Origin: Desulforadius tongensis
GTDB taxonomy: Bacteria > Bacillota > Desulfotomaculia > Desulfotomaculales > Desulfohalotomaculaceae
Direction of reading: 5' to 3'
Length of the DNA stretch: 47,206 nt
Assembly: GCF_016907915.1 (NCBI RefSeq)
Contig: NZ_JAFBCW010000019.1
Location: 1-47,206, forward strand
Shown: positions 33,167 through 47,112 of the stretch, piece by piece
How the letters are laid out: each line of letters starts with the position of its first letter
Numbering within the stretch: the first letter of the stretch is position 1
Made by a program: the position numbers and the translations under genes
The notes under the pieces: model-generated
Database searches by the model: none
Seen by the model: only the letters and a program-made list of their open reading frames with translations
Told to the model about the DNA's origin: nothing

Positions 33167-33901
33167 TTAGTAGGCGTACAGCCTTCCGTAAGGACGCTTA
33201 GAAACCGGAAGCAGTTTACAGAATGGAACACTTAAAACTTCTTCCAGTTCAAACCCGAAATGGGCACAGTATTCTTCAAGAAACGGCTGCAGTTTTTTTT
33301 CATCTTCCTCGTTTAGTTCAAAGACTTCTACTTCTTTTCCTAGTTTATATCTTTCTACTTCCCCGCGCAAGTAAATTATTCCACCATGCATTCCTGTACC
33401 CAAATAGTCTCCGGTAAGGGGGTCCCCCGGTTTACGGTTTAATCCCAGCACCACTAAAATACCGCCGGCCATATACTCACCAAAGAAATCGCCGGCAGTA
33501 CCGCCGACTACAATGGCGGGAACCCGGTCCTGGTACTCTTTCATATGAATACCCACCCGGTAGCCCACATTACCTTTGATAAAAATTTTGCCACCGCGCA
33601 TGGCATAACCCAGTACATCTCCTGCCCCACCATGTACCACAACAGTGCCGTCATTCATGGTGTTGCCGATACCATCCTGGGCGTTGGCATAAACAGTAAT
33701 TTCCGGACCGTTCATAAAGGCGGCCAGGTCATTCCCCGGTACACCGTTGACAGTTATACGCACTTTTTCGTTAATACCGGTACCGATATAGCGCTGGCCG
33801 TTAACATTATCCAGTACAATCTCTGTTTCGCCGTTCTTCACCGCCTGGTGAATCATTTTATTTAAATCCCGGTAATACATACCCCGGGCATCTATCCGCA
33901 T
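33167..33901 (-). CDS. glutamate synthase alpha subunit C-terminal (GXGXG) domain protein
   Basis: 244 residues of the GXGXG beta-helix that forms domain 3 of glutamate synthase: repeated glycine-rich strands such as NAQDGIGNTMNDGTVVVHGGAGDVLGYAMRGGKIFIKG in part and YMAGGILVVLGLN. It corresponds to the C-terminal part of GltB and structurally closes the FMN/ammonia channel. I start at ATG 33901 (GGAGGGG 6 bases upstream) rather than the GTG 33907. Third gene of the split operon, 15 bases after the FMN-domain gene. Confidence 0.92.
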   Translation of the reverse strand: MRIDARGMYYRDLNKMIHQAVKNGETEIVLDNVNGQRYIGTGINEKVRITVNGVPGNDLAAFMNGPEITVYANAQDGIGNTMNDGTVVVHGGAGDVLGYAMRGGKIFIKGNVGYRVGIHMKEYQDRVPAIVVGGTAGDFFGEYMAGGILVVLGLNRKPGDPLTGDYLGTGMHGGIIYLRGEVERYKLGKEVEVFELNEEDEKKLQPFLEEYCAHFGFELEEVLSVPFCKLLPVSKRPYGRLYAY

Positions 33902-33916
33902 GTACACCCCTCCTCA

Positions 33917-35425
33917 TTACCGGCCTGCCGGTTTAATACCTAAGATGTTCAGTTCCGTTTCGTTTAAACCGATACCCCGCAGGCGCTCTCTACTGCCGCG
34001 CAGGCTCTCCACTGCATTTACACCCAACGCCCCTAATATTTCTTTTAATTCCAGCGACCAGCCGCGGATCATATTAATTAAGCATTGGGCCGCTTTATCC
34101 GGGTTCAGGCGGCGAACCAGTTCCGGGCGCTGGGTGGCAATACCCCAGGAACAGCTGCCGGTGTAACACTTCTGGCAGAGACGACAGCCCATGGCAATAA
34201 GGGCGGCAGTACCTACGGCCACAGCATCAGCCCCCAGTGCAATTGCTTTAGCCATGTCAGCACTGGAACGAATGCCGCCGGAAGCTATAATGGATACCTT
34301 ATTCCTGATGCCTTCTTTACGCAGCCGGTCATCCACTGCAGCCAAGGCTATTTCAATGGGTATACCCACATTATCCCGGATAATGGTCGGTGCCGCCCCG
34401 GTGCCGCCCCGGAAACCATCCAGGTAGATGATATCTGCACCGGCCCGGGCAATACCGCTGGCAATGGCCGCAACGTTGTGCACCGCGGCAATTTTTACAC
34501 TGACAGGCTTTTCATAGCCGGTGGCCTCTTTAATAGCATAAATAAGTTGGGCCAAATCTTCAATGGAATAGATATCGTGATGGGGTGCCGGTGAAATAGC
34601 ATCAGACCCCTCCGGTATCATTCTGGTTTGGGAAACCTCCCGGTTTACTTTTTCGCCGGGAAGGTGTCCCCCAATACCAGGCTTGGCCCCCTGGCCGCAT
34701 TTAATTTCTACCACCGCAGCCCGATTCAGGTACTCTTGATTAACCCCAAAACGACCGGAAGCCACCTGCACAATGGTATTTTCGCCATAGCAATACAACT
34801 CCTTGTGCAAACCACCCTCACCGGTGTTGTACAAAATGCCGCACTCTTTAGCGGCACTGGCCAGCGCCTTGTGGGCATTTAAACTGATGGCCCCATAGGA
34901 CATGGCACTGAATACAATGGGTGTATCCAGTTTAACCTGGGGATTTAGCTTCGTTTTTAACTTGTACTCACCGTTTTCACTGTACCGGAACTCCAAGCTG
35001 TCGGGCTTTGAACCCAGGTAAGTCCTTAACTCCATTGGTTCCCGCAGCGGGTCAATGGAAGGGTTAGTTACCTGGCAGGCATCCAGCACCATATGATCAA
35101 AGTAGCTCTTGTATACTTTGTCGTTGCCGCCGCCGGTAAGCAGCATTCCGCCGGTGGCCGCCTGTTTATGCAGGTTTTTAATGTGCTCCGGCGTCCAGTG
35201 ATGATTTTCTTTATAGGCCAGGGGATTCTTAACAACATTAATAGCCGCTTCCGGGCAGGTACTTACACAGCGCTGGCAGGCCACGCACTTTTTGTGGTCA
35301 GCCACCACTTTATCCCCTTTAAAACTCAGCGTGCCAAAGCCGCACTCCGCCACACAGCGCCTGCAGCGGCGGCAGAGGGTGTGATCGATTTGCACGTTAA
35401 ATTCTGCCGGCAGATAAACACTCAT
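33917..35425 (-). CDS. ferredoxin-fused FMN domain of glutamate synthase (GltB domain 2)
   Basis: 502 residues. Residues about 10-70 are a two-cluster ferredoxin (CRRCRRCVAEC and CVACQRCVSTC). The rest is the glutamate synthase FMN barrel: [59 protein letters not shown], and the Cys group CRLCQKCYTGSCSWGIATQ that binds an iron-sulfur cluster. The overall gene set matches archaeal-type glutamate synthase, in which domains are separate. The fused ferredoxin would pass electrons to the flavin, so it may not need GltD. ATG overlaps the amidotransferase stop by 4 bases. Confidence 0.93.
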   Translation of the reverse strand: MSVYLPAEFNVQIDHTLCRRCRRCVAECGFGTLSFKGDKVVADHKKCVACQRCVSTCPEAAINVVKNPLAYKENHHWTPEHIKNLHKQAATGGMLLTGGGNDKVYKSYFDHMVLDACQVTNPSIDPLREPMELRTYLGSKPDSLEFRYSENGEYKLKTKLNPQVKLDTPIVFSAMSYGAISLNAHKALASAAKECGILYNTGEGGLHKELYCYGENTIVQVASGRFGVNQEYLNRAAVVEIKCGQGAKPGIGGHLPGEKVNREVSQTRMIPEGSDAISPAPHHDIYSIEDLAQLIYAIKEATGYEKPVSVKIAAVHNVAAIASGIARAGADIIYLDGFRGGTGAAPTIIRDNVGIPIEIALAAVDDRLRKEGIRNKVSIIASGGIRSSADMAKAIALGADAVAVGTAALIAMGCRLCQKCYTGSCSWGIATQRPELVRRLNPDKAAQCLINMIRGWSLELKEILGALGVNAVESLRGSRERLRGIGLNETELNILGIKPAGR

Positions 35426-36522
35426 ACTTCTACCCCCTCTTCCAATTCAGCAATAACTGGTTCCCCCGCCTCAGCCGTCCATACTTCGTCCAAATCCGGG
35501 CATATTTCGCGGATGGCACTTTCTTCACTGGCCATATAAACCATGTCATCTTTAATTCCCACAGTCATGGGACGCAGTTTAATCCGGTCATTGAGTCCTA
35601 TCATCGCCCTGCTGTTGGCAATAATAAAGCTGAAGGGACCATTTAACAACGCCGAACCGTACACCTGCCTGATGGCGGTATAAACAGCCCGCTGCTCCGG
35701 TTCCATTCTGTCAATCTCCTGCCAAAAAGGCGCTGCCAATATTTTACAAGTTAATTCCAAGGGAATTCCCTGTTTTCTGTGCAGTAAATCCACAAAATAG
35801 GCCACCACTTCGGTATCTGTTTGTAATTCACAACGGTAGTTGAACATTTCCAGGTATCTCTTGTTGATGCCGTAAGAGGATATTTCCCCGTTGTGCACCA
35901 CCGACCAGTCTAACAAACAAAAGGGATGGGCACCACCCCACCAGCCCGGTGTGTTAGTGGGAAAACGCCCGTGTGAAGTCCAAATATAGGCTTCATAATC
36001 TTCCAGGCAGAAAAAACGACCGATATCTTCCGGGTAGCCAACCCCCTTAAAGGCACCCATATTTTTACCGGAAGATATTACAAAGGCACCATCCAGGCAA
36101 TTATTAATATACATTACAGCTTCTACCACATAATCTCTTTCATCAACCGGTTGACCGGCATTATCATACAAACTTTTACCGTCAACCAAGAGAAAATACC
36201 TCCAGATAATCGGAGGATCGGTAATATTATCCACATTTCTCGTTGGAATCGGTTCGCAGCGATCAACAATAAATTTATCTTTTAAATAGGTTTCAGTATC
36301 AATGCGATTTTGTTTACTGCTGTACAGGATGTGAAACGCGTAGTGATTTTTAAAGTCAGGATATATGCCGTAGGCAGCAAAACCGCCGCCTAAACCGTTG
36401 GATCGGTCATGCATCAGTGCAATGGATTTAATTACCGCTTCCCCGTTCATACGGCGGCCTTTTTTACTCATCATCCCGCTGATGGCGCATCCTGAAGGGA
36501 TTCTGGGGAATGTACCAATCAT
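35422..36522 (-). CDS. class II glutamine amidotransferase domain of glutamate synthase (GltB domain 1)
   Basis: 366 residues homologous to the glutaminase part of glutamate synthase and PurF-type enzymes. The presumed nucleophile is Cys12 in PSGCAISGMM after a short leader that would be removed; N-terminal GGGFAAYGIYP, and the HNGEISSYG ammonia-channel motif (near residue 225) is present. It supplies ammonia to the FMN-domain protein. Start ATG 36522 follows AGGAGGTTATTGCACCA. First gene of the operon amidotransferase - ferredoxin/FMN - GXGXG - lpdA - lipA. GlxB-like or GltB-like use remains to be told apart. Confidence 0.9.
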   Translation of the reverse strand: MIGTFPRIPSGCAISGMMSKKGRRMNGEAVIKSIALMHDRSNGLGGGFAAYGIYPDFKNHYAFHILYSSKQNRIDTETYLKDKFIVDRCEPIPTRNVDNITDPPIIWRYFLLVDGKSLYDNAGQPVDERDYVVEAVMYINNCLDGAFVISSGKNMGAFKGVGYPEDIGRFFCLEDYEAYIWTSHGRFPTNTPGWWGGAHPFCLLDWSVVHNGEISSYGINKRYLEMFNYRCELQTDTEVVAYFVDLLHRKQGIPLELTCKILAAPFWQEIDRMEPEQRAVYTAIRQVYGSALLNGPFSFIIANSRAMIGLNDRIKLRPMTVGIKDDMVYMASEESAIREICPDLDEVWTAEAGEPVIAELEEGVEV

Positions 36523-36816: not shown

Positions 36817-38301
36817 TTATACCAGGTTTGAAAATCCCATCAAGTAGCGGTGGCACTCCCGTGCTGCACCCCGCCCTTCATTGATAGCCCATATCACCAG
36901 GCTCTGCCCCCGGCGCATGTCACCGGCAGCAAATACTCCCTCAACATTGGTCATAAACTTACCATACTCAGCTTTGGCGTTAGAACGCTCATCGCGAGCA
37001 ATACCCAGTTGGTCAAGAAGAGTGTCTTCGGGACCGGTAAAACCCATGGCCAGCAGCACCAGCTGGGCAGGCCAAACCTTCTCCGTGCCGGGTATTTCCC
37101 TCGGCACTAAACGCCCCTGGTCATTCCTCGCCCATTCAACGTTAACGGTATGCACCTCTTTTACATGCCCGCGCTCATCTCCAACAAATTTTTTCGTCAT
37201 GATGCAATATTGGCGCGGATCAGCACCATAAAGAGCTGCTGCTTCTTCCTGGGCGTAATCAACTTTATGCACCCTGGGAAACTGCGGCCAAGGGTTACTT
37301 GAACTGCGCTCGGAGGGGAGTTTAGGCATAATTTCAAGCTGTACAACACTCCTGCACTTATGACGCAGCGAGGTACCAACACAGTCGGTGCCGGTATCTC
37401 CACCGCCAATAACAACAACGTCTTTCCCCGCAGCAGAAATGAAATTTCCATCCGCATAATTGGAATCCAGCAGACTTTTAGTATTGGCATGAAGAAACTC
37501 TACTGCAAAATGAATACCTTTAAGATTTCGCCCTTCAACAGGTAAGTCACGGGCTTTGGTAGCTCCACCGCAAAGAACCACCGCATCAAATTCCCGAAGA
37601 AGTTTTTCTGCCGGATAATCCTTACCAACTTCTGTGTTAGTTACAAACTTAATCCCTTCCGCTGCCATAATATCAACTCGCCTTTGTACATACCGTTTGT
37701 CAAGCTTCATATTGGGAATACCGTACATCAAAAGCCCGCCAATTCTGTCGGCACGCTCAAAAACAGTAACCCAGTGGCCGGCTTTATTAAGCTGGGCCGC
37801 ACAGGCCAGGCCGGAAGGCCCCGAACCAACCACGGCAACCCTTTTGCCGGTGCGTTTAGCAGGCGGCTGTGGCACGATCCACCCCTCTTCATATGCTTTA
37901 TCAATAATGGCACACTCAATGTTTCTTATAGTAACAGGCGAGCCAACAAGCCCGGCAGTGCATGCCCCCTCACAGGGTGCCGGACAAACCCTGCCGGTGA
38001 ACTCCGGAAAGTTATTTGTCTTCAACAGGCGATTAAGGGCCTCTTTCCACAATCCCCGGTAGACTAAATCATTCCATTCCGGCGGCAAATTATGGTTGGG
38101 ACAGCCCGAAACCATCCCGTTAATCATAATTCCGCTGTGACAGAATGGTATGCCGCATTCCATACACCGCGCTGCCTGTGTTTTCAATTTTTCTTCCGGC
38201 AGGCGATGGTGAAACTCCTGCCAATCGTTTACACGCTCTAAAGGTTCCCGATGGGCAGGAAGTTCCCTGTTATATTCCATAAATCCGGTAGGTTTACCCA
38301 T
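36817..38301 (-). CDS. gltD: glutamate synthase small subunit (NADPH)
   Basis: NAD(P)H-oxidising FAD subunit that feeds electrons to GltB. 494 residues. The N-terminal iron-sulfur part has [10 protein letters not shown] and [15 protein letters not shown]-binding [17 protein letters not shown] near residue 145; NADPH-binding [15 protein letters not shown] near 290; and the C-terminal [19 protein letters not shown] motif. I start at the ATG 38301 (GGGAGG 8 bases upstream). It begins 29 bases after the gltB stop and is its normal partner. Confidence 0.96.
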
Positions 38302-38330
38302 AACGTTTCCTCCCAACCAATTTTGCTCAA

Positions 38331-41300
38331 TTAATTACCGCTGACCCGAGATTGGTCGTTTTTGTTCTCCTCAAAAGCAGTCATAATAGCTTCTTCTCCG
38401 CTTAACCCCATCTTATATGCCCGCTCAATGGCTTCCATCATGCGCTTGTAGTCCTTGGGAATAACCCGTACAAACTTTGGCAGCATGTCATCCCAATTAT
38501 CCAGCACCCTTTGAGCAGCTTTACTTCTCGTATATTTTACATGCCGTTTAATCAAATTTTTAACCTCTTCAATTTCACCGGTATCCTCCAGTTTTTCAAG
38601 CAGAACCATTTCCAGGTTGCAGCGATTATGGAAAGTACCGTCTTCATCAAGCACGTAGGCAACACCGCCGGACATGCCCGCTGCGAAGTTTCTGCCGGTG
38701 GAACCAAGCACCACCACCCGGCCGCCAGTCATATATTCACACCCGTGATCACCTACACCTTCCACAACCGCCCGCACACCGCTGTTTCTGACACAGAATC
38801 GCTCACCGGCCACACCGCGGATATACGCTTCTCCCGATGTAGCGCCGTAAAAAGCCACATTGCCGATGATAATATTTTCTTCAGGCACAAAGGTGGACTT
38901 GGTTGGAGGAAATACAATTATTTTGCCACCTGAAAGACCCTTACCGATATAGTCGTTGGCATCCCCTTCCAGGGTAAGTGTAATCCCCTTGGGGACAAAG
39001 GCACCGAAACTCTGCCCGGCCGAACCCTCAAAATACAATCGAATGGTATCCTCGGGCAGTCCTTCCGCACCATAACGCCTTGTAACCTCGCTGCCCAGGA
39101 TGGTTCCCACAACCCGGTTAATGTTGCGAATGGGCAGCTTAGCTTCCACCGGTTCCCCATTTTCCAGGGCAGGCCGGCAGATCCTTAACAGTTCCTGCAT
39201 GTCAAGGGATTTCTCCAGCCTGTGATCCTGGGCAACCCGGCAGTATCTACCCACACTTTCCGGAACATCCGGCCGGTACAGCAGAGCGGAAAGATCCAGT
39301 CCTTTTGTCTTCCAGTGGTCAACAGCCTTACTAACCTCAAGCACGTCAGTTCTACCCACCATCTCATTCACAGAACGGAAGCCCAACTCAGCCATTATCT
39401 CCCGCATTTCTTGGGCAATAAAACGCATCAAATTAACCACATGCTCCGGATCACCCCGGAAATTCTTGCGCAGTTCCGGGTTCTGGGTGGCTATACCCAC
39501 CGGGCAGGTATCCAGGTTGCAGACCCGCATCATAACGCAGCCCATGGCCACAAGGGGAGCGGTGGCAAAACCGTATTCTTCAGCACCTAAAAGTGCTGCT
39601 ATTACTACATCACGCCCGGTCATAAGTTTACCGTCGGTTTCTACAACTATTCGGTCACGAAGCTTGTTTAATACAAGGGTTTGGTGTGTTTCCGCAACAC
39701 CTAATTCCCAGGGCAGCCCGGCATGCCTGATGCTTGTGCGCGGGGATGCACCCGTACCCCCGTCGTAACCGCTGATCAGCACAACATCGGCCCGCCCTTT
39801 GGCTACCCCTGCAGCAATGGTGCCCACACCTACCTCTGAAACCAGCTTGACATTAATTCTGGCCCTGGGATTGGCATTTTTAAGATCGTGAATCAGCTCT
39901 GCAAGGTCTTCAATTGAATAAATATCATGGTGAGGCGGCGGTGAAATAAGCCCCACACCGGCTGTGGTACCCCTTACCTCCGCAATCCAGGGATACACCT
40001 TTTTGCCCGGCAGCTGGCCGCCTTCACCGGGTTTTGCCCCTTGGGCCATTTTAATTTGAATTTCATCTGCATTAACTAAATAATTGCTTGTAACCCCAAA
40101 CCGGCCTGAAGCCACCTGCTTGATGGCACTGCGGCGGGAATCACCATTGGGATCGGGTATAAAACGAGCAGGATCTTCCCCGCCTTCACCGGTGTTGCTC
40201 TTGCCGCCAATTCTATTCATAGCAATGGCCAGGCATTCATGGGCTTCTTTACTTATGGAACCGTACGACATGGCCCCAGTTTTAAAACGCCTGCAGATTT
40301 CTTCCACCGGTTCCACTTCATCTATTGGAATGGGCTTGCGGTTTGATTTAAAGGTAAAAAGCCCGCGTAAAGTACAGCTTTTCTGCGCTTTACTGTTCAG
40401 CAGCGATGAATAGCGCTTAAAAAGATTATAGTCATTGCTGCGGCAGGCCTGCTGCAGGGTATAAATGGTCTCCGGGTTAAACATGTGCTCTTCCCCGTCA
40501 TGACGCCACTGGAAGGCGGAACCGCAGTCCAAAGCAGCGTCCCCCGGCTCGGAAAACGCCCGCCGATGCCTAAGTTCAACTTCCCTGGCAATGGCATCCA
40601 GGTCAATACCGCCCAGGCGTGAAGAAGTCCAGGTAAAATATTTATCTATAACCGACTGGTGAATTCCAATGGCCTCAAATATCTGCGCCCCGCAGTAGCT
40701 TTGAATTGTAGAAATGCCCATTTTGGACATTACCTTGACTACACCTTTGGTTGCTGCCTTAATGTAATTCTTAATTGCCTCCCCGGAACTCAAACCGGTA
40801 AGCAGCCCCTTTTGAACCATATTCTCCAGGGTTTCAAAAGCCAGGTAAGGGTTAATGGCACTGGCACCATAACCCAGCAGCAGTGCAAAATGGTGCACTT
40901 CCCGCGGTTCCCCGGATTCAAGCAGCAGGCTTACTTTGGTACGGCTGCCTTCTCTTATCAAATGATGATGAAGTCCCGACACAGCCAGCAGGGCAGGAAT
41001 AGCAGCTTGCTGGCTATCTATACCCCGGTCGGATAAAATCAGTAAATTAGCACCGTTAGAAATGGCACCATCTGCCGCCCGGAATAGGTTATCCAATGCT
41101 TTTTCCAATCCCCGGCTTCCTTCAGATACTTTGTACAAAATGGACAAAGTTACCGCTTTAAAACCATCACAATCAATGTGCCGCAATTTTGCCAATTCTT
41201 CATTGCTGAGAACGGGTACTTTTAACCTGATTCTCCGGCAGCTGTCGGGCTCCGGCTTAATAAGGTTCTTTTCGGCACCAATGGTTGTTCCGGTGGCAGT

Positions 41301-42923
41301 AATTAATTCTTCTCTAATGGCATCAATTGGCGGGTTGGTTACCTGGGCAAACAGCTGCTTAAAATAGTTGTACAGAAGCTGCGGTTTTTCAGATAACACT
41401 GCCAGCGAGGCATCATTACCCATGGCACCAACCGGGTCAACAGCATTCTTAGCCATTGGTTCCAGTATCTTACCCAGTTCCTCGTGAGTATAACCAAAGG
41501 CCTGCTGCCGCCGGACCATGGTGTCTTTGTTCGGTTCCGGAACCCGGGAAGCCTTGGGCAGGTCTTCAAGGTTAATCATATATTTATCTACCCACCGGCG
41601 GTAAGGATGCTCGGAAACTATACGCTGCTTTAATTCTTCGTCGGTAACAATACGGCCCGCGCCGGTATCCACAAGCAGCATACGTCCCGGGTGAAGCCGT
41701 TCTTTATATGTCACCTTCTCAGGCTCCACATCAAGCACGCCTACTTCCGAAGCCAAAATAATAATGTCATCCTTGGTTACGTAATAACGCGAGGGCCTCA
41801 GGCCGTTTCTGTCAAGCACCGCGCCAATGATTCTACCATCGGTAAAGGCAACGGCAGCCGGTCCGTCCCACGGTTCCATTAAGCAGCTGTGATATTCATA
41901 AAATGCCTTTTTTTCATCGCTCATACTTTCATGATTGGACCACGGTTCTGGAATCATCATCATGGCAGCGTGGGGCAGTGAACGCCCTGAAAGGGTAAGA
42001 AATTCCAGGCAGTTGTCAAACATGGCCGAGTCACTGCCCTCCTGGTCAATTACCGGCAGGATCTTTTTCATATCTTCGCCGAAGAGCTCTGACTGGCACA
42101 TGGCCTGGCGGGCATGCATCCAGTTGACGTTCCCGCGCAGCGTATTGATCTCACCGTTATGGATTATATAGCGATAAGGATGAGCACGTTCCCAACTGGG
42201 GAAGGTATTGGTACTAAACCTGGAATGCACAAGGGCAAGCGCGGTTTCTATGTCCGGATCCTGCAGGTCCAGATAAAATTGATCCAACTGTTCAGGAGTA
42301 AGCATCCCTTTGTAAACAATGGTACGGGAGGACAAACTGGCAAAATAGAAGGGTTCCCCATCCTGCAGGCATGAGCGGCGAACTTCCTTTTTAGCCCGCT
42401 TTCTTATCACATAAAGCTTACGTTCAAAGGCCAGGTTGTCTTTAATTTCCGGGTTCGGGGCAATAAACACCTGGCTTATATATGGTTGGGCCAGTTTCGC
42501 GGTTTCACCCACCATAGAGTCATTTACGGGAACTGTACGCCATCCCAGTAAAACCTGGCCTTCCTCCTGCACAACTTTTTCCACTACTCGCTGGCAGGCT
42601 TCCCGCCGGCCGGCATCGGTGGGCAGGAAAAGCATACCTACACCGTATCTACCGGCAGGAGGCAGGGAAATATTTAATTCTGCACACTCTTTTTCCAAAA
42701 AAGCATGGGGTATCTGCATCAGAATTCCGGCCCCATCCCCTGTATTGGTCTCAGCGCCCTGACCTCCCCGGTGGTCAAGATTAATGAGAATGGTAAGCGC
42801 CTGGTGCAAAATTTGGTTAGATTTCTTTCCTTTGATGTTGGCTACAAATCCAATGCCGCATGCATCATGTTCAAATTTAGGATCATATAGACCCTGTTTC
42901 GGGGGCAATCCATATGTTTTCAT
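38331..42923 (-). CDS. gltB: glutamate synthase large subunit
   Basis: Full-length enzyme, 1530 residues, that hydrolyses glutamine and reductively aminates 2-oxoglutarate to two glutamates. Domains in order: glutaminase with nucleophile Cys22 in HDACGIGF (the leader is cleaved), the central domain, the FMN/synthase domain ([36 protein letters not shown]), the 3Fe-4S Cys group [19 protein letters not shown], and the GXGXG helix ([22 protein letters not shown] in part). I start at ATG 42923, as the longer frame to 42983 enters the leader RNA. gltD follows 29 bases downstream. Confidence 0.97.
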
Positions 42924-42982
42924 GATTTTGCAACCTTTCTCCATAATATTGTTTATATCTTTAAATAACAGCTGAAACCACA

Positions 42983-43062
42983 CTGAAACTGATTAACCGT
43001 TTCGTTCCTCCCCAGCAGTTTCAGAAGCGTATAATCCTCGTAAGCCCACCAGGAAGAAACGG
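42983..43062 (-). promoter_or_regulatory. candidate structured leader RNA of gltB (possible pseudoknot)
   Basis: Stem A: CCGTTTCTTCCT (43062-43051) pairs with AGGAACGAAACGG (43009-42997), 12 bp with one bulged C. Stem B: CTGAAACTG (43024-43016), inside the loop of A, pairs with CAGTTTCAG (42991-42983), 9 bp and perfect, downstream of A. This geometry allows a pseudoknot or two alternative folds. A second GTTTCAG (42977-42971) could compete in stem B. The upstream ORF 43021-43107 runs through stem A and stops on stem B. No published riboswitch class is recognised. Confidence 0.45.
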
Positions 43063-43107
43063 CGGTTTTTCCTGTCCCTCATTTAAGAAAGGCAGTATTA
43101 CCTCCAT
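43021..43107 (-). CDS. 28-residue upstream ORF in the gltB leader
   Basis: ATG at 43107 preceded by GGAGGTGATTAAAA, a textbook ribosome binding site at optimal spacing, better than that of many full genes here. The peptide begins MEVILPFLNEGQEKPPF and ends TGA at 43023-43021. It is not a typical attenuation peptide, as it has no glutamine or glutamate run. A second frame (42993-43082, 29 residues, from RDRKNRRFFLVG to GEERNG) overlaps it without a ribosome site; a +1 shift at the A run 43070-43066 would join them. Leader peptide, small protein, or frameshifted small gene remain possible. Confidence 0.55.
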   Translation of the reverse strand: MEVILPFLNEGQEKPPFLPGGLTRIIRF

Positions 43108-43144
43108 TTTTAATCACCTCCAGTATGGTATTATTGATATATTT

Positions 43145-43211
43145 AAAAAAAGGCTGATAAATCATGCTCATTTCCATCCCGGCGGAACAATACCGGCAGG
43201 CGTATTTATCA
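43145..43211 (-). terminator. attenuator-like terminator upstream of gltB
   Basis: TGATAAAT (43211-43204) pairs with ATTTATCA (43162-43155), enclosing an inner CCGG-based hairpin. The stem is followed by GCC and seven T residues (43151-43145). It lies between glnA and the small ORF and could either end readthrough from glnA or attenuate gltBD transcription. Confidence 0.65.
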
Positions 43212-43263
43212 ACGATACTATAATTCCTTATTGGCAGAATATTCATTCATCTTCCCAGAGCAG

Positions 43264-43301
43264 AAAAATGCCCGGGCTAAGGCCATAACCTTATTCCGGG
43301 C
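43264..43301 (-). terminator. intrinsic terminator of the downstream glnA
   Basis: GCCCGG pairs with CCGGGC, with an inner TAAGG/CCTTA stem, followed by ATTTTT. It starts about 47 bases beyond the glnA stop at 43348. Confidence 0.8.
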
Positions 43302-43347
43302 CTTAACTTTTTATATTTTTCACTACCCCAGCAGTTGAAAAACACAG

Positions 43348-44679
43348 CTAAAACTTGGTTAGGTATTCCTCCAGCTCCCAAGGATGAACCTGCATGCGGT
43401 AGCGATCCCACTCTATTCTTTTGGCTTCCATAAAGCGGTTGTATACATGGGGACCAAGGGCATCTTTAATTACCGGGTCCTTGGCTAATTCTTCCATCGC
43501 TTCCCGTAGGTTTTCGGGTAAACAGGCTATACCCTGCTCCCTGCGTTCTTCCTCTGTCATCTCATATATGTTTTGGTCGCAGGAAGGCGGTGGAGCAATT
43601 TTATTTTTAATACCATCCAGACCGGCACGTAAGCACACTGCCAAAGCCAAGTATGGATTGCAGGATGGATCCGGGCTTCTCAGTTCCACACGGGTGGACA
43701 TACCTCTTTTGGCCGGAATACGAATCAGCGGACTGCGGTTTCGGGCAGACCAGGCAATATACACCGGTGCTTCGTACCCGGCTACCAAGCGCTTATATGA
43801 ATTAACCTGGGGGTTGGTTATTGCTGTAATGGCCCGGGCATGCTTTATCAACCCGCCTATATAGTACATGGCAGTTTCACTCAGCTTGCTGTCGGTGCTG
43901 GGATCGTAAAAAGCATTTTCGCCATTTTTCATCAGCGACATATTCATATGCATGCCCGAACCGTTGATACCAAATACCGGTTTGGGCATAAAGGTTGCGT
44001 GCAGCCCATGCCTTTGGGCAATGGTTCGTACTACAAACTTAAAGGTAACAATTTTATCAGCTACATCCAAAGCATCGGAATATTTAAAATCAATTTCATG
44101 CTGGCCCGGGGCCACTTCGTGGTGAGATGCTTCTACTTCAAAGCCCATATCTTCCAGCATCAGCACCATATCCCGGCGGGCATCTTCACCCAGGTCAACC
44201 GGCGTCATATCAAAGTAACCGGCCCGGTCATGGGTAATGGTGGTTGGTTTACCATCCGAATCCACGTGGAACAGGAAAAATTCTGCCTCGGGACCAACGT
44301 TCATGGTATATCCCATTTCTTCCGCCTCGGCCAGCGCCCGGCGCAAAACATACCGGGGATCACCGATAAAGGGTGTGCCATCACTGTTGTAAATATCGCA
44401 AATCAAGCGGGCGGTAGCCCCTTCCCGCGGCTTCCAGGGAAATATCTGAAAGGTGTTGGGATCAGGGCGCAGGTACATGTCGGATTCTTCAATGCGCACA
44501 AAACCTTCGATGGATGATCCGTCAAACATCAATTCGTTGTTTAACGCTTTATCCAGCTGTTCCACTGTAATGGCTACGTTTTTTAACACGCCGAAAATAT
44601 CGGTAAACTGTAAACGAACAAATTTTACATCCCGCTCTTTACATAAGGCCTTCACATCTGCTGCTGTTAGCTTTGGCAC
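43348..44679 (-). CDS. glnA: glutamine synthetase type I (second copy)
   Basis: Makes glutamine from glutamate, ammonia and ATP. 443 residues, the GSI-alpha length. The N-terminal beta-grasp is followed by [20 protein letters not shown] with the feedback Arg seen in Gram-positive enzymes. Metal and ammonia sites are in [22 protein letters not shown] and [34 protein letters not shown] is the usual C-terminal block (in part). Start GTG 44679 behind GAGAGGTGTGAGCC. Its leader has ANTAR hairpins. A near-copy lies just upstream. Confidence 0.97.
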
Positions 44680-44730: not shown

Positions 44731-44814
44731 AAAAGAGGCCTTGCCCGTAATGCACACAGCATTACCGCAGAGGCCCCATTGCCTTTCTTAACACCGCTAC
44801 GCCGTTGTAACGGT
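44731..44814 (-). ncRNA. ANTAR-type antiterminator leader of the second glnA
   Basis: Hairpin 1 (44814-44793): stem ACCGTTAC with GTAGCGGT, hexaloop AACGGC. Linker of 8 bases. Hairpin 2 (44784-44771): stem AGGC with GCCT, hexaloop AATGGG. Both loops have A at position 1 and G at 4, the ANTAR recognition rule. Hairpin 2 overlaps the left arm of a terminator ending GGCCTCTTTT (44775-44731), so the two are mutually exclusive. An ANTAR protein is encoded 1.7 kb upstream at 46465-47052. Confidence 0.85.
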
Positions 44815-44862: not shown

Positions 44863-44895
44863 TGTTAGTGTTTTTTGCAAGAATGCTGTATACAT

Positions 44896-44966: not shown

Positions 44967-46301
44967 TTAAAACATTGTCAGGTAATTTTCCACTTCCCAC
45001 GGTGTAACCTGTAAGCGGAATTCTTCCCATTCTTTTAATTTTGCTTCCACAAATTTTTTAAATATATGTTCACCAAGGGCACTGCGAATGACCCGGTTTT
45101 TAGCTAATTCTTCCACCGCCTCGGGCAGGCTGGCCGGTAGGTTATCAATACCCTGCTTTTCCCTTTCGGCCGCGGTCATATCGTAAATGTTGGTGCTGCA
45201 GGCAGCAGGCGGCTGCAGGTTGTTTTTTATGCCGTCTAAACCAGCTTTCAGCATTACCGCAATGGCCAGGTAGGGGTTGCAGGATGGGTCCGGGCTGCGC
45301 AGTTCTACCCTGGTGGAAATTCCCCGTTTGGCCGGGATGCGAATTACGGCGCTGCGGTTGCTGCCGGACCAGGCTAAATATACCGGCGCTTCGTAACCGG
45401 GCACCAGCCGCTTGTAGGAGTTTACTGTGGGGTTGGTTACCGCGGTAACGGCCCGGGCATGTTTTAAAAGCCCGGCAATATAATTATAAGCGATTTGGCT
45501 GAGCTGATCCGGTGCCTCTGGATCATAGAAGGCATTTTTACCATCCAGGGTCATCAATGACTGGTTGGAGTGCATACCGGAACCATTGATACCATAAATG
45601 GGTTTGGGCATAAAGGTGGCATGCAGCCCATGGCGCTGGGCAATGGTACGAACCACAAATTTAAAGGTTACAATTTTATCTGCCACGTCCAGGGCATCGG
45701 AATATTTAAAGTCAATTTCGTGCTGGCCCGGGGCTACCTCATGGTGGGAGGCCTCTATTTCATACCCCATTTCTTCCAGCGTCAGCACCATGTGCCGACG
45801 GGCATTTTCACCCAAATCAATGGGGGACATGTCAAAATATCCCGCCCGGTCATGGGTTTCCAGCGTGGGGCGACCTTCATCATCCACCTGGAACAGGAAA
45901 AACTCCAGTTCCGGCCCCACCGCCATGGTGTAGCCCATTTCTCTAGCTTCCTGCAGTACTTTTTTCAGCGCGTTTCTGGGACAACCGCTAAAGGGGGTGC
46001 CGTCAGGTTTATAAATGTCGCAGATTAATCTGGCCACCGCCCCTTCCCTCGGCCGCCAGGGAAAAACTGCAAAGGTACTGGGATCGGGACGCAGGTACAT
46101 ATCGGATTCTTCAATACGCACAAATCCATGAATAGATGAACCGTCAAACATTAACTCCCCATCCAGCGCCTTTTCCAGCTGTTCTACAGTTATGGCCACG
46201 TTTTTTAGTACCCCGGTAATATCGGTAAACTGGAGTCGGATAAATTTCACCCCTGCCTCACGGGCCTTTTCCATTACTTCTTGTTTAAGCTGCTCATTCA
46301 T
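44967..46301 (-). CDS. glnA: glutamine synthetase type I (first copy)
   Basis: 444 residues, GSI-alpha type, closely similar to the copy at 43348 (many blocks identical, e.g. [20 protein letters not shown]). It has the same [29 protein letters not shown] and [20 protein letters not shown] motifs. The ATG 46301 follows AGAAAGGTGGATAACCG. Expression appears to be controlled by the ANTAR leader at 46355-46436, and the ANTAR gene sits directly upstream, so the two may be cotranscribed. Two copies may differ in condition of expression rather than chemistry. Confidence 0.97.
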
Positions 46302-46354: not shown

Positions 46355-46436
46355 AAAAAAACCTTTGCTAAAAGAGATAAACGTCCCTTTTACGCAAAGG
46401 CATCCTTGCCTGTCATCGGAGCACCCCATTGTACTC
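46355..46436 (-). ncRNA. ANTAR-type antiterminator leader of the first glnA
   Basis: Hairpin 1 (46436-46419): stem GAGTAC with GTGCTC, hexaloop AATGGG. Linker of 7 bases. Hairpin 2 (46411-46398): stem AGGC with GCCT, hexaloop AAGGAT. Both loops fit A1-G4. The terminator arm CCTTTGC (46400-46394) overlaps hairpin 2 and pairs with GCAAAGG (46368-46362), extended by TAAAAG/CTTTTA and followed by seven T residues. Binding of the ANTAR dimer should block termination. It starts 28 bases after the stop of the ANTAR gene. Confidence 0.9.
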
Positions 46437-46464: not shown

Positions 46465-47052
46465 CTACAGCTCATTGCGCAGGTTATGGGCCATAATCAC
46501 CGCCTCGGCCACCGCCCGCATACTGACCCGCTTGTTCATGCTTTGCTTCTGCAATTTTTTAAACGCCTGAGCCTCGGTAAGACCCATTGTTTCCATTAAA
46601 ATACCCTTGGCCCTTTCAATCACCTTGCGGCTTTCCAACTTCTCTTCCAATTGTTTGATTTTTCGCTGCAGTTTAACCATTTCATGGTAATTGGCCAGTG
46701 CCAGCTCCACCGCCGGAACCAAATGGCTTTCGTCTATGGGTTTTATTAAAAAGCTCTGCACACCGGCATTTACAGCTTTATCTATTAACTCCTGTTGGTA
46801 ACTGTTAGCCGTTAAAATTACCGGGGCCAGGTTGTCCTCATTTAGTATTTTAGCCACTTCAACCCCTTCCATGCCGGGTATTGAAGCCTCTATTATCACT
46901 AAATCCGGCTGCCTTGCCCGTACCAATTTGATGGCTGTTACTCCATCAACCGCCTCACCAATAACTAAATAACCCACTTTGCTCAAAATTGACTTTGAAT
47001 TTTTTCTCCAGTTGGCATCATTATCAACCAGGATAATTCGCTGGCCGGACAT
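46465..47052 (-). CDS. ANTAR-domain response regulator (transcription antiterminator)
   Basis: 195 residues. Residues about 1-120 form a receiver domain (ILVDND pocket, switch in ILTANS, KPID). Then a coiled coil about 125-150 (MVKLQRKIKQLEEKLESRK), then the ANTAR RNA-binding domain about 148-190 (RAKGILMETMGLTEAQAFKKLQ). The phospho-acceptor position is Glu55 in LVIIEASIPG instead of Asp, so activation by a kinase is doubtful. I start at the ATG 47052, behind GAGGTGAGCTCC. Both glnA leaders carry its expected RNA target. Confidence 0.93.
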   Translation of the reverse strand: MSGQRIILVDNDANWRKNSKSILSKVGYLVIGEAVDGVTAIKLVRARQPDLVIIEASIPGMEGVEVAKILNEDNLAPVILTANSYQQELIDKAVNAGVQSFLIKPIDESHLVPAVELALANYHEMVKLQRKIKQLEEKLESRKVIERAKGILMETMGLTEAQAFKKLQKQSMNKRVSMRAVAEAVIMAHNLRNEL

Positions 47053-47112
47053 GGAGCTCACCTCACTCCATCGCATCTAATCACAATGGTATTATGTAAA
47101 ATTATAAAGGAA
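47053..47112 (-). promoter_or_regulatory. short upstream region of the ANTAR gene with a -10 box
   Basis: TATAAT occurs at 47106-47101 on the minus strand, but the expected -35 place (about 47124-47129) lies inside the intron end, with no TTGACA-like sequence there. Ribosome site GAGGTGAG is next to the start. Confidence 0.4.

Follow-up and report, generated by a model that had tools for sequence, protein, structure and literature searches.

We have found that the nitrogen assimilation cluster of Desulforadius tongensis combines ANTAR targets before both of its glutamine synthetase genes, a conserved terminator behind the second of them and, ahead of gltB, a leader whose strand-specific structure is restricted to this one species, all of them identified computationally. 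The reading of the whole that we favor, tentatively and at somewhat less than an even chance, is that of an ANTAR-controlled cluster in which the species-specific leader hides the gltB ribosome site and dampens gltBD. From modelled folds we infer the dampening itself and any role of a short open reading frame (ORF) located within the leader.

The window, i.e., the whole stretch of 47,206 nucleotides that was analyzed, carries the cluster on its minus strand. The gene order is a response regulator with an ANTAR RNA-binding domain (46465..47076; Pfam ANTAR 3e-24, Response_reg 3e-20), the glutamine synthetase genes glnA1 (44967..46301) and glnA2 (43348..44679; Pfam Gln-synt_C and Gln-synt_N), gltB for the large subunit of glutamate synthase (38331..42923; Pfam GATase_2, Glu_synthase, Glu_syn_central and GXGXG), gltD (36817..38316) and a second, split glutamate synthase made of three genes (33167..36522). 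The leader under study lies on the same strand in the glnA2-gltB gap, which measures 427 nt here. As for the beginning of the cluster, the leader of the response regulator seems to be split by a group II intron (47184-47114 on the minus strand of the window; contig C45:1-208, locus L146). The end of contig C45 has an ANTAR target and a terminator followed by GTGTGCCCGGCATGGGCA...GGTGAAAGTCCC, read as the 5' end of the intron, and the contig of the window starts with an intron 3' domain (Rfam match) just ahead of the regulator. Two congeners carry the same gene upstream, followed without a break by the ANTAR target and the regulator, and the join between C45 and the window is putative.

The conserved control of the cluster would be ANTAR antitermination at the glnA1 and glnA2 leaders. 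Both contain two hairpins with A1/G4 hexaloops, AACGGC and AATGGG before glnA2 (44771..44812, minus strand; covariance model R1, 35 bits, E 4e-7; fold z -5.3) and AATGGG and AAGGAT before glnA1 (46398..46436, minus strand; 18.9 bits, E 0.004; fold z -3.3). In both P2 overlaps an intrinsic terminator, with the GCCU of P2 in the 5' arm of the terminator. They are predicted targets of the adjacent ANTAR response regulator. ANTAR control has already been proposed for the glutamate synthase genes of Desulfotomaculum reducens, and at least 13 ANTAR targets forming a nitrogen regulon were described in D. acetoxidans (Ramesh et al., 2012; PMC3369931). Model R1, built on 15 leaders (99.3% of cells paired, four pairs changed on both sides), detected targets in 17 of the 30 gltB leaders of the order with E values of 0.0014 or better. 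In the gltB leader of the window the best score was 1.5 bits (42900-43400, all filters off) and there was no pair of hexaloops with A1 and G4. Concerning the sequences around these targets, GTATACATAATTC is repeated upstream of the gltB ANTAR targets of four loci (L012, L016, L017 and L027) and GTATACAGCATTC is found before the glnA2 target of the window, near 44893 on the minus strand; the two together are a possible shared promoter or operator.

The next cistron, gltB, lies behind a conserved intercistronic terminator (43236..43319, minus strand; covariance model R2, 80.6 bits, E 5e-16) that probably tunes read-through. This element is built of GCCCGG..CCGGGC with an inner AAGG..CCTT, a T-run and then GAATATTCT, and its hairpin has a z of -3.3. 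Nine genomes have one strong copy each, invariably located where glnA is followed by a gene for glutamate synthase: three belong to the genus of the window (the window and two congeners) and six to the genus Desulforamulus. It was found in 8 of the 30 gltB leaders scored, the window included, and our reading of those leaders gave none with both this element and an ANTAR target. All eight of the other genomes with the element have the response regulator, glnA1 and glnA2 upstream with ANTAR targets, and in each of them the target before the second glnA scored 28-38 bits. A weak second copy precedes the second glutamate synthase set of the window (36624-36546, minus strand; 20.4 bits, E 0.21) and opens with the same AGTTAAGGCCCGG; in the congener G001 a glutamate synthase gene of the second set comes immediately after glnA and the element. 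We also weighed GAATATTCTGNNAATA, within the terminator element, as a CodY-like site and dropped the idea, as it has too many mismatches against the consensus.

Between this terminator and gltB a segment of about 250 nt appears to have been gained by a single species. We searched 113 genomes of the order, including that of the window (a search at the class level covered the same 113), 36 of which gave a match to the gltB N-terminus. The segment 43235-42930 did not recur in its own genome or in the 112 others beyond short chance matches, and the two congeners lack it, without even a broken copy. The glnA-gltB gap of the congener G002 is 152 nt, and those of the relatives that share the terminator element range between 152 and 347 nt, against the 427 nt found here. 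Conservation in relatives, which the preliminary description had itself chosen as the yardstick, was thus not found, as neither the segment nor the encoded peptide has homologues in the genome or in the order. We also considered a mobile element or MITE and rejected it: there is a single genomic copy with no match in plasmids, phages or viral contigs, and the DNA-level palindrome score of the segment falls within the range of shuffled sequences. In the same interval of another locus (L015) there is a short ORF (ATGACAGCCACTGGCCCGCC...), preceded by GGAGAAGGCAGG, that looks like a gltB start which was duplicated and has decayed, and upstream ORFs may therefore originate by local duplication at the glnA-gltB junction.

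The individual elements that had been pointed out in the leader are all there: a terminator-like stem (43211-43145), a 28-codon ORF (43107-43021) and two stems, A and B. The first is part of a second terminator-like hairpin (43145..43214, minus strand), with arms GTTGATAAAT/ATTTATCAGC, that closes on TTTTTTT (43151-43145); its MFE is -18.3 kcal/mol, and since its z is just -1.05 it can be considered ordinary. Its 3' arm and T-run can alternatively pair with the gltB ribosome site. The ORF (MEVILPFLNEGQEKPPFLPGGLTRIIRF; ATG at 43107, TGA at 43023-43021) has a near-perfect ribosome site, with the Shine-Dalgarno (SD) sequence GGAGGTGATT (43112..43121) containing GGAGGTGAT, which occurs nowhere else in the 47 kb on either strand. 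None of 27 other gltB leaders showed a comparable ORF behind a strong SD. The peptide has three Glu and one Gln among its 28 residues, and we found no homologues across the genomes of the order; the search returned six genomes including that of the window, the other five through weak and short matches that lie in unrelated frames. There is consequently neither a conserved nor a biased leader peptide of the kind seen in leader-ORF attenuators. A simple promoter scan of 42800-43500 found no promoter.

Read from the transcript strand, the leader has the look of a genuinely structured RNA: its fold exceeds chance in z-score, in strand bias and in comparisons with shuffled sequences and with other windows. 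The region 43170-42921 folds with a z of -7.03 on the transcript strand versus -3.49 on the opposite one. Windows of 200 nt on a fixed grid, chosen regardless of the fold, gave -5.35 (43175-42976) and -6.26 (43150-42951), and the whole leader gave -4.56. Given its GC content, only one of 470 windows of 250 nt was as extreme or more, the region upstream of groES, and the next outliers after the leader were the windows with the glnA2 ANTAR leader and with a T-box. The equivalent regions of seven relatives were not unusual (z between -0.7 and +1.3). That groES region (6515-6352, minus strand), where the most extreme fold of the whole window is found, has a CIRCE element, TTAGCACTC-N9-GAGTGCTAG, and ahead of it a long inverted repeat with imperfect arms (CCAGGTAAATATAATATAGACTGAG...TTCTATATTATATTACCTGG).

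The minimum free energy fold, modelled like the other leader structures from a single sequence, is a nested hairpin of about 245 nt (42921..43166, minus strand; -83.9 kcal/mol) that takes in both the short ORF and the ribosome site of gltB. Its outer helices (43163-43159/42928-42924 and 43156-43144/42943-42931) pair CCUUUUUUU, the T-run of the second hairpin, with the gltB SD GGAGAAAGG (42934..42942). The middle helices (43129-43118/42988-42977 and 43116-43110/42996-42990) cover GGAGGUGAUU of the upstream ORF, the SD of which pairs with 42996-42977 and is 11% unpaired, and the inner ones are 43060-43046/43018-43004 and 43043-43036/43027-43021.

Stem A (42997..43062; CCGUUUC-UUCCU / AGGAA-C-GAAACGG) has 12 bp with one bulged C at 43004, and stem B (42983..43024) has nine perfect pairs, CUGAAACUG/CAGUUUCAG. 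They are interleaved as the two helices of an H-type pseudoknot. In 3000 dinucleotide shuffles of the 134-nt segment a 12-bp stem appeared in 6, a 9-bp stem in 29 and the H-type pair in none, a figure softened by the fact that the spot had been picked out of 47 kb. The proposal of an H-type pseudoknot as the fold of the leader had overlooked three longer helices: a 15-bp register (43060-43046/43018-43004) that competes with stem A, the helix 43129-43110/42996-42977 that competes with stem B, and 43163-43144/42943-42924. When energies were compared, the pseudoknot was not favored over the nested alternatives. With pseudoknot penalties assumed to be 7.0 and 9.6 kcal/mol, its estimated energy was -26 to -29 kcal/mol over 106 nt versus -34.8 for the nested fold (a gap of about 6-9), and -67 to -70 versus -85 over 260 nt (about 15-18).

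The models also suggest what could govern access to gltB. Its SD is 2% unpaired in the full leader. Masking the start or the stop of the ORF with a ribosome leaves it only 1-2% open, so that the ribosome-operated switch described earlier, in which translation of the ORF would rearrange the stems, keeps the gltB site 98-99% paired; in these models, the position of the ribosome did not alter downstream access. With an RNA starting at 43144 the SD becomes 69% unpaired, and 56% when the arms of the terminator hairpin are reserved. In this model it is the T-run, rather than the ORF, that decides access to gltB. The long hairpin, in which the T-run pairs with the gltB ribosome site and the ribosome site of the ORF is paired too, would accordingly dampen gltBD translation on read-through transcripts. 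The gltB site would become accessible if the terminator hairpin (43214-43155) kept its fold, and also if the start or a cut of the RNA fell downstream of the T-run. Ribosomes may translate the short ORF while the RNA is emerging, and the effect of this ORF on gltB is conjecture. There are counterpoints to the dampening: chance alone can make a poly-U run complementary to an SD rich in purines, other folds of an RNA can be long-lived, and ribosomes bound to the ORF would block the nested hairpin during its formation.

The serious rival is a structured but non-functional insertion. The segment would be a species-specific insertion or duplication scar with incidental structure and no regulatory role, and although we consider this unlikely, it comes closest to the preferred reading. 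It agrees with the single copy, with the absence of the segment from both congeners, with a gap longer than in relatives that have the same terminator and with the resemblance of 43245-43223 to a decayed ribosome-site region, e.g., that of locus L008. A scar does not lead one to expect a z of -5 to -7 that is much stronger on the transcript strand, nor does a decaying inverted repeat fit with a DNA palindrome that is not significant. Quite improbable, in our view, is that the element at 43319-43236 is the real regulatory RNA, a terminator/antiterminator attenuator replacing the ANTAR target at glutamate synthase. The nine genomes with one strong copy at the glnA-glutamate synthase junction and the mutual exclusion with ANTAR targets in the 30 scored leaders would fit, as would the 5' TTAAGGCC, for which the window offers GGCCTTAG as a possible pairing partner, the two changing jointly in locus L013 (TTAAGACC/GGTCTTAG). 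However, RNAalifold on a MAFFT alignment found no pair with changes on both sides, and a plain conserved terminator after glnA accounts for most of these facts.

More doubtful still is the reading that the pseudoknot and a translated ORF of 28 codons form a translation-responsive or ligand-sensing gltBD switch. Stems A and B are real, their H-type arrangement is absent from the shuffles, the ORF has a near-perfect SD and the helices are mutually exclusive. Against it stand the better nested fold, the gltB SD that a modelled ORF-bound ribosome fails to expose, the lack of anything conserved in the order and the lack of a U-run after either stem that could make a terminator. Among the folds open to the leader, these energies make the pseudoknot switch the less likely one, and it has no comparative support. 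Ligand sensing found no support, as no Rfam family matches, that of the glutamine riboswitch included. None of the Rfam 15 families matched the leader and permissive thresholds gave chance matches only; the glutamine riboswitch covariance models had no match in the window or in the leader; and the T-box model (RF00230) matched once, at 22313-21973 on the minus strand (112.9 bits), and not in the leader. We regard as similarly doubtful a recently evolved three-way switch on glutamate synthase in one species, made of the ribosome-loaded ORF, a metastable terminator hairpin and the hairpin that hides the gltB site, in a lineage without a gltB ANTAR target. To gltB being under ANTAR antitermination at its own leader we give hardly any credence: most relatives have such a target and the cluster encodes an ANTAR protein, but the score of 1.5 bits and the missing hexaloop pair led us to reject it.

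The reading that we favor, dampening by a species-specific hairpin behind conserved elements, would have a broader meaning. In relatives gltB likewise comes after glnA. The gltB leaders of the order mostly have either an ANTAR target or the plain conserved terminator, and here one species has added a strongly folded leader of 250 nt. If this leader works, it represents a rapid move from a conserved antiterminator controlled by a protein to a private RNA structure.

Several known systems resemble parts of this arrangement. Ribosome-site-occluding hairpins and leader-ORF attenuators likewise have an upstream ORF, mutually exclusive helices and a paired SD, but here there is no conserved peptide or structure and modelled ribosomes do not free the downstream SD. 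The glutamine riboswitch of cyanobacteria (the glnA RNA and the downstream-peptide motif) regulates genes of nitrogen assimilation as well, and has no Rfam match here. The gltD (SRC-18-1) riboswitch candidate, reported only from Selenomonadales and Veillonellales and directly before gltD (PMC8632094), is another glutamate synthase leader RNA with a hairpin that hides a ribosome site; as described, its taxa and position set it apart from our leader, which matches no Rfam family. The closest likeness is to the ANTAR target RNAs (PMC3369931), two A1/G4 hairpins overlapping a terminator. The gltB leader of the window differs from them in having no such target, whereas the glnA1 and glnA2 leaders share the same architecture, as do the majority of gltB leaders in the order. 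The ANTAR nitrogen regulon published for Desulfotomaculum is thereby widened to include the genus of the window.
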